This document shows positions 53,233-58,395 of a DNA stretch of 58,642 nt, in pieces. The position numbers and the translations under genes are program-made. The stretch is from Bacteriovoracaceae bacterium. GTDB lineage: Bacteria > Bdellovibrionota > Bacteriovoracia > Bacteriovoracales > Bacteriovoracaceae. The first letter of the stretch is position 1; every line of letters begins with the position of its first letter. The stretch lies in NCBI GenBank assembly GCA_016786485.1, contig JAEUWD010000031.1:1-58642 (forward strand). The letters run 5' to 3'. Under the pieces are notes generated by a model that did not search any database, was not told the origin of the DNA, and was given only the letters and a program-made list of their open reading frames with translations.

Positions 53233-53308
53233 GGGCTCGTAGCTCAGTTGGGAGAGCGCAACGCTGGCAGTGTTGAGGTCGTCAGTTCGATCCTGATCGG
53301 GTCCACCA
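53233..53308 (+). tRNA. tRNA-Ala (anticodon GGC)
   Basis: The 76-nt cloverleaf has acceptor GGGCTCG pairing with CGGGTCC (two G-U pairs), D stem GCTC/GAGC, an anticodon stem with loop CTGGCAG (anticodon GGC), and T stem GTCAG/CTGAT with loop TTCGATC. The discriminator is A and CCA is encoded. It reads GCC codons. The sequence downstream has accessory-island character. Confidence 0.97.
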
Positions 53309-53539
53309 TATTCCGGGATAGAAAAAAGCCAATCAAGAACAACATTAGTTAAGACTTTGAATTTAAACACAAAGGGTTTCAAGCTGTTACATCAAGTTCA
53401 TTCTCTCTACATTTCCGAACATTTCGCAAAATTTCTTTCGTTGGCTACCTGTGGCTATATGTTTGGCTACTTGATTAGCAACGTGAAGTTTTAAGTTAAA
53501 ATTAGCATCTCCTTGGACGTAATCCAGCTCTAGTACTGA
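53309..53539. other. Intergenic stretch after tRNA-Ala with phased TGGCTA repeats
   Basis: No gene is evident here. Three TGGCTA hexamers (53442, 53452, 53464) lie at 10-12-bp spacing, on one helical face. The minus strand is open without a start for about 55 codons (ending VANQVAKHIATGSQRKKF and a stop near 53389), possibly the worn end of a lost gene. Together with its place beside the tRNA, this suggests an integration site. Confidence 0.4.
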
Positions 53540-53572
53540 CAATTTCGACCAGCATATCGCTGGCAGAAATTG
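53540..53572 (+). promoter_or_regulatory. Hairpin/operator 1 before the tandem-HTH gene
   Basis: CAATTTC pairs with GAAATTG (7 bp), then a 2x2 internal mismatch, then CCAGC pairs with GCTGG (5 bp) around loop ATATC. It directly abuts hairpin 2. Confidence 0.75.
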
Positions 53573-53609
53573 CTAATTCAAAGCCAGCGTACTGCTGGCA
53601 CTGAATTAG
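53573..53609 (+). promoter_or_regulatory. Hairpin/operator 2 before the tandem-HTH gene
   Basis: CTAATTC pairs with GAATTAG (7 bp), then a 3x3 internal loop, then GCCAGC pairs with GCTGGC (6 bp) around loop GTACT. It shares the CCAGC-N5-GCTGG core and overall plan of hairpin 1, with dyad centres 35 bp apart, and ends 27 bp before the ATG. Confidence 0.8.
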
Positions 53610-53635
53610 TTAACAAATTTAAAAAAGGAGAAACT

Positions 53636-54271
53636 ATGGAAGCTGAAAATCAACGAAGATCAAAAAAAAAAGTCATTACGAAAGAAGTAATTGCTTTTAA
53701 AAAGATGAGAGAATTAAAGAATTTAAGCCGTAAAGAGGCAGCACCTTTAGTCGGTGTTACTTTTAAACTTATCGAACAGGTTGAAAATGGTAGGGTCGAA
53801 ATTACTCAAAGACGTATTATTCAATATTGCAACGCATATGGTTTTTCAATTGAGCAGTTTAAAGATATTTGTGAGGGCAGGCTAGGTAAAATTAAAAATG
53901 AGATACATAAAAATAAACCCAAGGTAATTGAAAATAACAACCTTAGAAGGAGTTACAAAACAATTATAACAAAAGAAATAAGAGTTCTTGAGGCCTTGAG
54001 AAAAATAAAAGGTATCTCTCAAGATAAGGCGAGCTACCTTTGCGGTTATTCACGATGCACAATAGGTCATATTGAAAACGGTAGAATTGAAGTTTCAAAA
54101 AGACGCATAGAACATATTGTAAAAAGTTATGGTTTTAAAATGAAAGAATTTGATGATTATATGAAATCTAATGTTTTAAGGACAGATGTTATTGAGGAGT
54201 GTTATTTATTGTTGCAAAAATTGAGTAACGAAAAGCTAAAAACATTTAGGTCATTGCTTGAGAATTTTTAG
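53636..54271 (+). CDS. Protein with two tandem XRE-type HTH domains
   Basis: The 211-aa protein starts at ATG 53636 with AAGGAG five bases upstream; a longer frame from 53570 would read through the hairpins. It contains two internal repeats of about 68 residues: ITKEVIAFKKMREL to DICEG (14-81) and ITKEIRVLEALRKI to DYMKS (111-178). Each has the helix-turn-helix layout of XRE/Cro proteins with IEQVENGRVEITQRR or IGHIENGRIEVSKRR in the recognition region. A basic linker joins them. Such a protein could bind two operators at once, and two matching dyads lie directly upstream. It is probably a regulator of the island genes. Confidence 0.75.
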   Translation: MEAENQRRSKKKVITKEVIAFKKMRELKNLSRKEAAPLVGVTFKLIEQVENGRVEITQRRIIQYCNAYGFSIEQFKDICEGRLGKIKNEIHKNKPKVIENNNLRRSYKTIITKEIRVLEALRKIKGISQDKASYLCGYSRCTIGHIENGRIEVSKRRIEHIVKSYGFKMKEFDDYMKSNVLRTDVIEECYLLLQKLSNEKLKTFRSLLENF

Positions 54272-54630
54272 TTAACTAAATATTTTTCAAATTTTATCTA
54301 TTTTCTGGAGAAACGATATATAAACGGTTCAAATCCGATCGATTCCTCCAGAAATAGTTTCGATATTTGTTTCCAGAGAATAATTCTATGATTACCTTTC
54401 GAAATTATTAACAAATGGTTTCAGTTAGTTAGACCAAGTTCAAATACCTTCAATGTTGCATAAAATTGCAGAATGTTTCGATGGTTGGCTTCTCGTGTGC
54501 TTCCGTTGGGCTTCTGCGGTTGTTCAAAATTTCTGCTCCATCTGTTGTAACTATTTTAAGAAAAAGCCTATGAGCAATCGATACTAAAGTCGAAATTGCC
54601 TTTAATTTCTATTTTTGATACTTAGCAGTG
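54272..54630. other. Intergenic stretch with a tRNA-3'-end-like hairpin and 11-bp periodicity
   Basis: There is no convincing gene in this stretch. It holds a tRNA-like remnant (54302-54354) and, at 54487-54514, three KGCTTC hexamers exactly 11 bp apart. The minus strand is open for about 57 codons without a start (54438-54606), which may be a decayed fragment. A 30-codon plus-strand frame at 54481 is probably chance. Confidence 0.4.
54302..54354 (+). other. tRNA-3'-end-like structured remnant
   Basis: TTTCTGGAG pairs with CTCCAGAAA (9 bp) and CGAT with ATCG. The enclosed CGG-TTCAAAT-CCG has the T-arm consensus. After the T-stem there are seven bases, one discriminator base and CCA (54348-54350), which is exactly the spacing of a tRNA 3' end. 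No D arm or anticodon arm is present, so it is not a tRNA gene. It is not a copy of the tRNA-Ala 3' end. Confidence 0.5.
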
Positions 54631-55702: not shown

Positions 55703-55909
55703 ATGAGTAAGATCGAATTTACATTAAAAGACAAAAAGAATCTTGCAAAGAACGTAGCTGCTCTCAGGTACTTATCTAGCAAACTAGAGGATTCAGATGA
55801 ATTTGAGAAATCACTAAAAGCGATTAGATTGCAGGTTCAGCTTGCAAAAAGCCAGTTAAGGGCCAGCAATCTAGGGTGGCGCTTGATTTCGACACAAGTT
55901 GAGGGTTAG
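55703..55909 (+). CDS. 68-aa hypothetical helical protein
   Basis: The small Lys/Leu/Ala-rich protein is predicted to be helical (LAKNVAALRYLSSKLEDSDE). It has no recognised motif and no clear ribosome site. Its end overlaps the convergent restriction enzyme gene by 4 bp. It may be real, given the tight packing and island context. Confidence 0.4.
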   Translation: MSKIEFTLKDKKNLAKNVAALRYLSSKLEDSDEFEKSLKAIRLQVQLAKSQLRASNLGWRLISTQVEG

Positions 55910-58395
55910 CTTACCTTTGCCTTCTTTGCTCTGGTCTTTTTTGTCAAAGAAATTTGATTCAGATTTTTCTCAATTTCGTCAATATCTAGGGGATGTAGCT
56001 TTTCGTCGGGTAATTCGAATATTGAGTCAATCTTCTCAAGATCGTTTGCAGTTACACTATTATTTATTAGTACTTTCTCCACAATATCAAGCATCTCCAT
56101 TGTGAAAACAGAATCGGGGACATTCAATTTATAGACTTCATTTGGATCAAAATTGTAACCATCAGCTCTTAAAGTTATTCCGGCATTATCGAGCTGAGAC
56201 ATAAAAAACTTTGAATTTATCCAGCCTAAAATACACTTAAAATGTGCAAGCGAGACACTCTCTTTTTTAAGCCAAATTGATTGTCCAGAAGTTCCAACCC
56301 CATCACCGTTAAGATCAATTGCGGCTTTGACTCGGCCATCTTTTGATGACGGCATTCTCGGCATATAGATTCTTGGGGTCGAAAGGTCTTTGCCGTAGAA
56401 TTCAATTTTTTCACATCCACGCCAAGAAAAAGGAAAATTTTTTGTTACTTGAGCTCTTTTCTTTAAAGCTTGAATTTCCCCTGCTTTTAATTCTATGTCA
56501 TCAGGGAATGGGCATCCTCGTGGAACAAAGAGAATATCTTCGCTCTCAGTTAAATTCCAAATTAAATTCTGGCCACTGTTTTTTTCAGGATATACTTTCT
56601 TCACCCATTTCTTTTTTAGCTCTTTAGGGATTCGTCGAGCGATTTGTATGTATATATCTTTTTTGGATGGTTGAAAGCCATTTGCAGAAATAATGAATTC
56701 AGATAATGGTCTTCCTTCATTTTTTACTCCAGATGAGTTTAGCTTTGTGATGAAATGATGATTAGATAGACCTTTTACGCCATAAATCGCTTCGGCAACT
56801 TTAGATGCAGGAGAATGAGGGAACCTGTTGACCTGACCATGATCAAAAAGTTTAAACTTTGAGTTTTCCGCCCAATCTCTAAATTTTTTATTACTAATGT
56901 TAGTCGTAACTTGCTGTTTGATTAAATAACACGCTCTGAAATTTTCAGTATATGGAAAAACTCTTTTCTCTTGTACATGTTTTAATACGTAGCAAGAGAT
57001 ATCTGAATCGTCTGAATATATAGCTTTATGCTGTGACTTTAACAAGTCTCTTACTTTTGAAGTTAATCCCACAGGATTACCGGGAGCATCGATATTTCCC
57101 CACGGGGGATTGCCAACTACTAAGCTGATTTTCTTATTAATTTTTATATCAAATAGATCAGATTCGTATATGTGATGTAATTTAGGGAGTTTCCACTTTT
57201 CACCTAACTCTGAAGGCTCTGCATTTAGTATTTTCACGTAGGTACTTAATAGCATCGCTTTACAGCACTTTAACGCATAGATATCTCTATCAACTGCAAA
57301 AATATTCTCCTCAAAAAATTTAACCAACGTATCCATTTCTTTTTTTGGATTGAACTTTTGCCATGCTAGCTCAGATGCAACACAGAGAAGCGTTCCAGTT
57401 CCAGATGCTGTATCAATTATCCGGTCAGTTTTTTGTGGAGAAACTTTTGCGATCATTTCAACGGCTAAGTCTTCAGGTGTGTAAACGCTTGTCGCATTTT
57501 GTTTGGATGACACCATTTTTAAAATTCTTTCGTAAGCAAACCCTAATGTATCTGGATGTAGTAAGTTTAAGCGTGTACAAAATCTTGTTGTGTGCCCGTA
57601 AATTTCCCAAACCGCATCAGCATACTTATTATCAATTTTTTCAAAATTTTCATTTAGTATACGATTTAATTCATTGCTAATTCCTGAAGCGTCTAAGCTT
57701 TTCTCTAGAGCTCTCAAAGTTGAATTAGGTATAATGCCATTATCTCTGAGAACAGCTACCAAAAATAATTGAACCCAATAGTCAAAAGCAATTTCAGGTT
57801 TTTTAATTTTTGATAATAATGAATGATAGAAATTTTGAAAGTCTGTATGAAGTCTATCGTCAAGTAAGCCAATTGTTCTTGTATCCTTAAAAGGCGCTCT
57901 ATGTAACCGAGCGTGCCCTAATTTACCATTTCTAACTCTTTCGAGTATTTTTTTAAACTTAAGAAAATCATCTTCTTTTTTGAGGTTTAGGACTTCCTTT
58001 GAGTTAAACGAAAGTGTCGTATCTAAGGATGAGTCAAAGATAATAGCTTCATCTCCATCAGTAAGAATTCCAAGAGGATATACAATTTCTCCGTCTTTGT
58101 AGTAATTAAATGAAAATGCATATCTGTGAGCTTGCTGAAAGGCATTTTCGAGGAGCTCACCTCTATTTGGTTTTTTTAATTCAATAGCTAATTTACATCT
58201 ACCGTTCTTAAGGATTTTAACATCAATAACACCTTTTGGGCCCCTGCGCTCATGCTGAATTTCGCCAGCCGGATTAAAATATTCACTTGCTATAAGCTGA
58301 AACCAGTTACTATGGATTTCACCTTCAGTTTCAACAGATTCCACAATTTCTCTATGTTTTTTGAAATTGATATTTATTAAAACTAAAGAGTTCAA
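55906..58395 (-). CDS. Type IIG restriction-modification enzyme (Eco57I-like)
   Basis: The 829-aa single polypeptide combines cleavage and methylation. The N-terminal nuclease domain has a PD-(D/E)xK-like site: Asp58 in KGVIDVK and Glu72-x-Lys74 in AIELKK. A helical linker follows. The N6-adenine methyltransferase core has YTPEDLAVEM, DTASGTGTLL (motif I, 328-337) and NPPW (429-432, motif IV). The C-terminal part (about 560-800) resembles TaqI-like target recognition domains. Translation appears to start at TTG 58395, with AGGAGG four bases upstream and no ATG nearby. Such enzymes protect against phage. No separate specificity or methylase gene adjoins it. TTGAGC/GACAAT upstream may be its promoter. 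Confidence 0.88.
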   Translation of the reverse strand: MNSLVLININFKKHREIVESVETEGEIHSNWFQLIASEYFNPAGEIQHERRGPKGVIDVKILKNGRCKLAIELKKPNRGELLENAFQQAHRYAFSFNYYKDGEIVYPLGILTDGDEAIIFDSSLDTTLSFNSKEVLNLKKEDDFLKFKKILERVRNGKLGHARLHRAPFKDTRTIGLLDDRLHTDFQNFYHSLLSKIKKPEIAFDYWVQLFLVAVLRDNGIIPNSTLRALEKSLDASGISNELNRILNENFEKIDNKYADAVWEIYGHTTRFCTRLNLLHPDTLGFAYERILKMVSSKQNATSVYTPEDLAVEMIAKVSPQKTDRIIDTASGTGTLLCVASELAWQKFNPKKEMDTLVKFFEENIFAVDRDIYALKCCKAMLLSTYVKILNAEPSELGEKWKLPKLHHIYESDLFDIKINKKISLVVGNPPWGNIDAPGNPVGLTSKVRDLLKSQHKAIYSDDSDISCYVLKHVQEKRVFPYTENFRACYLIKQQVTTNISNKKFRDWAENSKFKLFDHGQVNRFPHSPASKVAEAIYGVKGLSNHHFITKLNSSGVKNEGRPLSEFIISANGFQPSKKDIYIQIARRIPKELKKKWVKKVYPEKNSGQNLIWNLTESEDILFVPRGCPFPDDIELKAGEIQALKKRAQVTKNFPFSWRGCEKIEFYGKDLSTPRIYMPRMPSSKDGRVKAAIDLNGDGVGTSGQSIWLKKESVSLAHFKCILGWINSKFFMSQLDNAGITLRADGYNFDPNEVYKLNVPDSVFTMEMLDIVEKVLINNSVTANDLEKIDSIFELPDEKLHPLDIDEIEKNLNQISLTKKTRAKKAKVS

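Follow-up and report, generated by a model that had tools for sequence, protein, structure and literature searches.

The window analyzed here is a stretch of 58,642 nucleotides (contig JAEUWD010000031.1) from a Bacteriovoracaceae bacterium, and the features described below lie on its plus strand except where stated. The tRNA-Ala(GGC) gene at 53233..53308, detected by ARAGORN and Rfam, is occupied by an island, and its end (...TCCACCA) is the attachment core at the left island end. Downstream follow three direct repeats TGGCTA(C/T) (53442..53470, starting at 53442, 53452 and 53464), which are probable integrase arm-type sites, and two TTAGC-type repeats, GATTAGCA and AATTAGCA (53473..53506); both sets were read directly from the sequence. 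After the two dyads discussed below comes the first gene of the island (53636..54271, ATG at 53636 and stop at 54271), which encodes a tandem-HTH (Cro/C1, HTH_3) protein of 211 aa, identified through Pfam, its homologues, AlphaFold2 and Foldseek. A tRNA-Cys(GCA) 3' fragment, CGGTTCAAATCCGATCG-ATTCCTCCA (54325..54350), was recognized by comparison with the 3' end of the genome's own tRNA-Cys. Standing directly after the HTH gene, it is, as judged by this comparison, the remnant of a second, Cys-type attachment site. Behind it are TTGGCTTC-type repeats (54485..54518, read directly) that resemble arm-type repeats of relatives, e.g. those of L046, and the fragment and the repeats together indicate that this island end is a mosaic. 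A fused restriction-methylation protein (HSDR_N + N6_Mtase; 55906..58395, minus strand; Pfam, PADLOC) is island cargo outside the regulatory unit, and the contig ends shortly past its gene.

The original prediction described two tandem dyads of one plan before the HTH gene, each with a 7-bp outer stem and a CCAGC-N5-GCTGG core. Both dyads are present at 53540-53609, and the dimensions of the second need correcting, its outer stem being 8 bp and its core 6 bp. Read from the sequence, dyad 1 (53540-53572) is arranged as CAATTTC-GA-CCAGC-ATATC-GCTGG-CA-GAAATTG, with the operator-like ACCAGCATATCGCTGGC at 53548..53564 and outer stem arms at 53540-53546 and 53566-53572. Dyad 2 (53573-53609) is arranged as CTAATTCA-AA-GCCAGC-GTACT-GCTGGC-AC-TGAATTAG, with the operator-like GCCAGCGTACTGCTGGC at 53583..53599, 35 bp from dyad 1, and outer stem arms at 53573-53580 and 53602-53609; this outer stem is where inverted and direct copies of the TTAGC-type repeats reappear. 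The pattern CCAGCN5GCTGG occurs at two places in the whole 2.98-Mb genome, both at these dyads, and at none in 100 shuffles of the window. The MFE of the two-dyad region is -36.7 kcal/mol, compared with -17.2 +/- 2.8 for 200 shuffles (z = -7.0). A look for promoters beside the dyads in the window leader gave no convincing candidate, and the sole match in the Rfam scan of the window was the tRNA gene, with no described RNA family at the leader.

The two HTH domains proposed for the 211-aa product were confirmed by Pfam as Cro/C1-type domains at about residues 22-74 and 117-167, with PF01381 matching two stretches at 60.1 bits against a curated cut-off of 23. The AlphaFold2 model has a pLDDT of 86.9 and a pTM of 0.49, i.e. 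each domain is modelled confidently and the relative domain arrangement is not. The best Foldseek matches are XRE/C proteins of the Cro/C1 fold with TMt up to 0.8 and a best E of just 0.002, and the structures matched are single-domain XRE and C proteins only. Each of the two domains resembles autoregulatory Cro/C1-type regulators. HTH2 is far more conserved among the homologues than HTH1, and the signature after its recognition helix is mostly IGHIENGR in the proteins at tRNA-Ala (Ala-type) and IGFIENGR in many of those at tRNA-Gly (Gly-type).

A family of islands at tRNA genes

We collected 83 distinct homologues from the phylum Bdellovibrionota. The protein has homologues in 84 of the 129 genomes of the family at E <= 0.001, many of them partial or single-domain, and in 68 of the 369 genomes of the phylum at E <= 1e-25. 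A profile scan of the genome contigs yielded 52 loci, and an earlier scan with the single protein had yielded none. Most of the named relatives are MAGs under the labels Bacteriovoracaceae, Halobacteriovoraceae or Bdellovibrionales, and no relatives of the protein were found in phage, plasmid and viral-contig searches.

A tRNA gene was found just upstream of 51 homologues, and in all 51 of them the HTH gene adjoins the 3' end of the intact tRNA on the same strand, mostly at a distance of 283-384 nt. These tRNAs comprise 37 Ala(GGC), 10 Gly(GCC), 2 Cys, 1 Val and 1 Ala(TGC). Most of the remaining 32 homologues lie near contig ends or follow a core (TCCACCA or CCGCTCCA) that has no intact tRNA with it, and a few have neither. 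The core at the tRNA-Ala end is common to the att sites of the relatives without an adjacent tRNA, and cores lacking an intact tRNA are what tandem or circular islands, or mobile remnants, would be expected to show.

The island tyrosine integrases are 45-91% identical within the Ala-type and 56-68% within the Gly-type, compared with 28-37% between the two, and integrase class tracks motif class. An integrase was seen in L207, L065, L035 and L216, together with a second core in the first three, and the contig of the window stops before the island end. Some islands also carry TraG-like, Replic_Relax, SSB or Xis-like genes. Since the upstream tRNA is on the same strand and the islands encode integrases, what adjoins the tRNA is the end of an integrative island, with the HTH gene as its first gene. 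The left-end order in the relatives is the tRNA core, phased repeats, one or two dyads and the HTH gene, where repeat triples equivalent to the TGGCTA set of the window occupy the same place in most relatives. Islands at tRNAs have already been reported in Bdellovibrio (PMC3539863). The genome of the window holds a second tandem-HTH gene (L073, contig C59), which lies beside tRNA-Gly(GCC) and has GCAAGCA-N2-TGCTTGC dyads.

Dyads in the leaders of the relatives

The dyad and the tandem-HTH gene co-occur near the start codon across many homologues, as the original prediction would have it, and one or two copies are found there in most Ala-type leaders. The common plan of outer stem and core holds at the window locus, but in the relatives the core alone is kept, as an imperfect palindrome of 16-17 bp, GAGAGCG/GCCAGCG-N-CGCTGGC. 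Its right half is CGCTGGC, its left half is GAGAGCG, GCCAGCG or a variant, and the halves are mostly separated by N4 or N5 and once by about N10. Comparing the HTH linker length with the dyad spacer by eye gave no tidy relation. A search for GAGAGYGNRCGCTGGC in 124 genomes gave 16 matches, 15 of which precede the tandem-HTH gene or its remnant, compared with one match for the reversed control.

The commonest arrangement among the dyad-bearing tandem-HTH homologues is one dyad per protein. In the 19 aligned loci with two sites, the right halves are 35 bp (17 loci) or 36 bp (2 loci) apart, and in L124 the second copy is inverted. We scanned for a wider regulon with a PWM and obtained 119 extra matches, compared with 68 in shuffled sequence; the strong ones fall mostly on the tRNA gene, and no clear regulon beyond the leader emerged.

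The Gly-type leaders have CTTGC sites with a constant spacing of 66 bp, in contrast to the 35 bp of the Ala-type two-site leaders; this spacing was seen upstream of the HTH gene at L073, L146, L148, L159, L160, L162, L164, L166 and L170. A further repeat (e.g. GGATTAGCC, GGACTAGCC or GGGATAGCC) stands beside the dyad in the leaders of L043, L053, L055, L058, L061 and L062, where two direct copies upstream and one inverted copy downstream vary in step within each locus.

Match between the leaders and the tRNA genes

Neither the island boundary in tRNA-Ala nor the match of the dyads to the tRNA gene was within view of the original prediction. A copy of the dyad motif, GAGAGCGCAACGCTGGC, lies inside the tRNA-Ala gene of the window (53252..53268) with a PWM score of 21.7, as high as that of the leader sites. 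It spans the 3' strand of the D-stem, the 5' strand of the anticodon stem and the anticodon loop up to the anticodon GGC, and GAGCGNNACGCTGGC occurs exactly in the genome only at this copy. The PWM built from the leader dyads finds a full-score match inside the tRNA-Ala gene in most loci, and the best agreement between leader and tRNA reaches about 18 of 20 positions (L044, L067 and L084).

We compared the leaders with all 29 tRNAs in the genome of the window. The tRNA matching best was Ala-GGC for 26 of the 37 leaders at tRNA-Ala sites and for 15 of the 21 H-type leaders without a tRNA, with 1/29 expected by chance. The hexamer GCTGGC from the anticodon side of tRNA-Ala is found in 27/37 Ala, 13/22 unassigned H-type and 0/17 Gly leaders (about 1 in shuffled leaders), and the corresponding Gly hexamer GCTTGC in 0/37, 1/22 and 13/17, respectively (about 0.5 in shuffled leaders). 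The half-site and the HTH2 signature switch together by class, i.e. IGHIE with GCTGGC at tRNA-Ala and mostly IGFIE with GCTTGC at tRNA-Gly. When each leader is aligned with its own tRNA, p<=0.05 is reached in just 20/37 Ala, 3/10 Gly and 1/2 Cys loci; for Gly, the case depends on the hexamer test at the level of the set. Of the two tRNA-Cys elements, L150 nearly matches its tRNA over 12 nt (p = 0.013), and the leaders of the elements at tRNA-Val (L071), Ala-TGC (L147) and the second tRNA-Cys (L168) have no match to their own tRNAs. A PWM from the Gly dyads scores only 2-11 on tRNA-Gly genes, below both its own sites (16-26) and tRNA-Tyr.

The class-level match is therefore solid in the Ala case and moderate in the Gly case, and it amounts to roughly two independent observations since the Ala and Gly types form two clades. 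Co-adaptation to each host is not seen. In about 11 of the 37 Ala-type hosts tRNA-Ala has ATGGC for CTGGC, and the leaders there keep the CTGGC half, so that tracking of tRNA-Ala variants at the level of the host was not found.

Interpretation of the dyads

Our analysis suggests that the dyads probably are double-stranded DNA operators of the downstream tandem-HTH protein, which would regulate its own gene as part of a left-end module of the island and might also bind the tRNA gene. Autoregulation is the natural reading of the linkage between dyad and gene: by binding beside the start codon, the protein would repress or tune transcription of its own gene. One protein spanning both dyads, as once proposed, is unlikely; since most dyad-bearing homologues have a single dyad, one chain with two HTH domains more likely covers one dyad, probably with one HTH on each half-site. 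We infer that the conserved HTH2 would sit on the conserved half CGCTGGC, and the variable HTH1 on the variable half. The varying half-spacing counts against this operator reading, since it would need a flexible two-domain protein. The conserved left end of the island family runs from the tRNA 3' end with the core through arm-type repeats, candidate operator(s) and the tandem-HTH gene to cargo and integrase.

An RNA-level switch in the 5' leader had also been suggested. In such a switch both hairpins in the leader RNA would control the HTH gene, perhaps by sensing tRNA-Ala, and we consider it unlikely. The strong predicted fold at the window locus, the perfect 18-bp stem of site 2 in L037 and the complementarity of the half GCCAGCG to the anticodon arm CGCUGGC, which includes the anticodon, all speak for it. 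But the outer stems are not retained outside the closest relatives. Among the relatives without the window, 56% and 63% of the cells of the two 7-8-bp outer stems are paired, compared with 37-52% and 42-63% for slid partners; the second stem is kept in the closest relatives, and it is made of inverted TTAGC repeats that are also found singly upstream. The proposed check for compensatory changes did not yield a conserved stem. A selected RNA stem should clearly favour G-U over A-C mismatches and a DNA dyad should not; the totals in the dyads, 64 G-U and 52 A-C, are close to each other and fit the DNA reading, as a trend and not as a significance test since the cells are not independent. Moreover, most leaders have only the short dyad, single dyads leave loops of just 2-5 nt, the left half GAGAGCG is identical and not complementary to the tRNA, and Rfam matches nothing except the tRNA gene. 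A reading of the dyads as sites for integrase or excisionase in the attachment region, with the closeness to the HTH gene being incidental, is about equally improbable. The dyads do share the left att arm with the TGGCTA repeats, and integrase class and motif class go together, but the motif is placed by the start codon and not by the core, and the HTH gene or a remnant of it nearly always comes next. As for the suggestion that the protein is an unusual controller (C) protein of the neighbouring restriction enzyme, we regard it as very improbable. Its domains resemble C proteins in profile and structure, but the restriction gene runs convergently to the HTH gene at a distance of more than 1.6 kb, and another gene separates the two. 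The islands of the homologues carry different, unrelated cargo without a conserved restriction neighbour, and the protein is conserved by its position at the tRNA and not with restriction genes.

Within the operator reading, the operator repeats the segment of the tRNA gene that the island occupies, and the same protein may bind that gene too. Binding there, for target recognition, att bridging or sensing of the integration state, would be a reasonable, though hypothetical, step from these matches. In its strongest form, which we put forward only tentatively, the protein would be a reader of the island's home address that binds the D-stem/anticodon segment of one tRNA gene as well as the leader copies. 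By bridging the tRNA gene and the attachment arm, the protein would either steer the island to that tRNA or signal the integrated state; the integrase core (~CCACCA), on this proposal, is too short to single out one tRNA. The hosts with ATGGC and the unmatched Val, Ala-TGC and Cys elements leave binding to the tRNA gene short of established. It is possible, though still doubtful, that the leader took its tRNA fragment long ago, and that only the operator role is now selected, with the protein inactive at the tRNA gene. The failure of the leaders to follow host-level changes of tRNA-Ala agrees with such a relic, but separate events would be needed for the Ala and Gly types, with half-site and HTH2 signature changing together.

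Comparison with known systems

The candidate operators and their protein resemble Cro/C1-type (HTH_3, XRE) autoregulators such as lambda CI/Cro and the restriction C proteins in the fold of the HTH domain and in having 16-17-bp pseudo-palindromic sites, sometimes paired, at the start of the regulator's own gene. Unlike them, one chain here has two complete HTH domains, one of which is more conserved, the sites are asymmetric, and there is no link to restriction or to a lytic switch.

The choice of tRNA by tRNA-targeting islands is usually credited to the integrase. In the present islands, the candidate self-regulatory sites of a distinct DNA-binding protein, which is co-inherited, duplicate a stretch from within the target tRNA gene, and this holds in two tRNA classes with the second HTH changing to match. 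Should the protein indeed bind the tRNA gene, a single sequence would couple the choice of target with self-regulation. Target-selecting DNA-binding partners of recombinases are known in the TnsD/TniQ type, which would be alike in its working if the HTH protein were to guide the island into a single tRNA gene; no homology between the two is expected. The anticodon loop and stem as an integrase core site have been reviewed for archaeal integrases, by which this arm of the tRNA gene is recognised as a DNA dyad (PMC8371274). In contrast, the core here is formed by the CCA end, and the copy of the anticodon arm is found about 250-300 bp away, before a regulator gene. Our literature search, which was incomplete, found no description of this arrangement of operator, tandem-HTH gene and tRNA copy.

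The islands resemble known tRNA-integrated islands with a tyrosine integrase in their tRNA 3'-end core, arm-type repeats and variable cargo, with TraG-like and Replic_Relax genes in several. They differ in that the tandem-HTH gene comes first at the tRNA side, and in that the candidate operator duplicates a stretch from inside the tRNA gene that does not belong to the very short core. At the start of many islands (L044, L045, L049, L054, L063 and L066), a hairpin resembling a terminator and a T-run stand about 15-30 nt past the tRNA, as if a new tRNA terminator were supplied.
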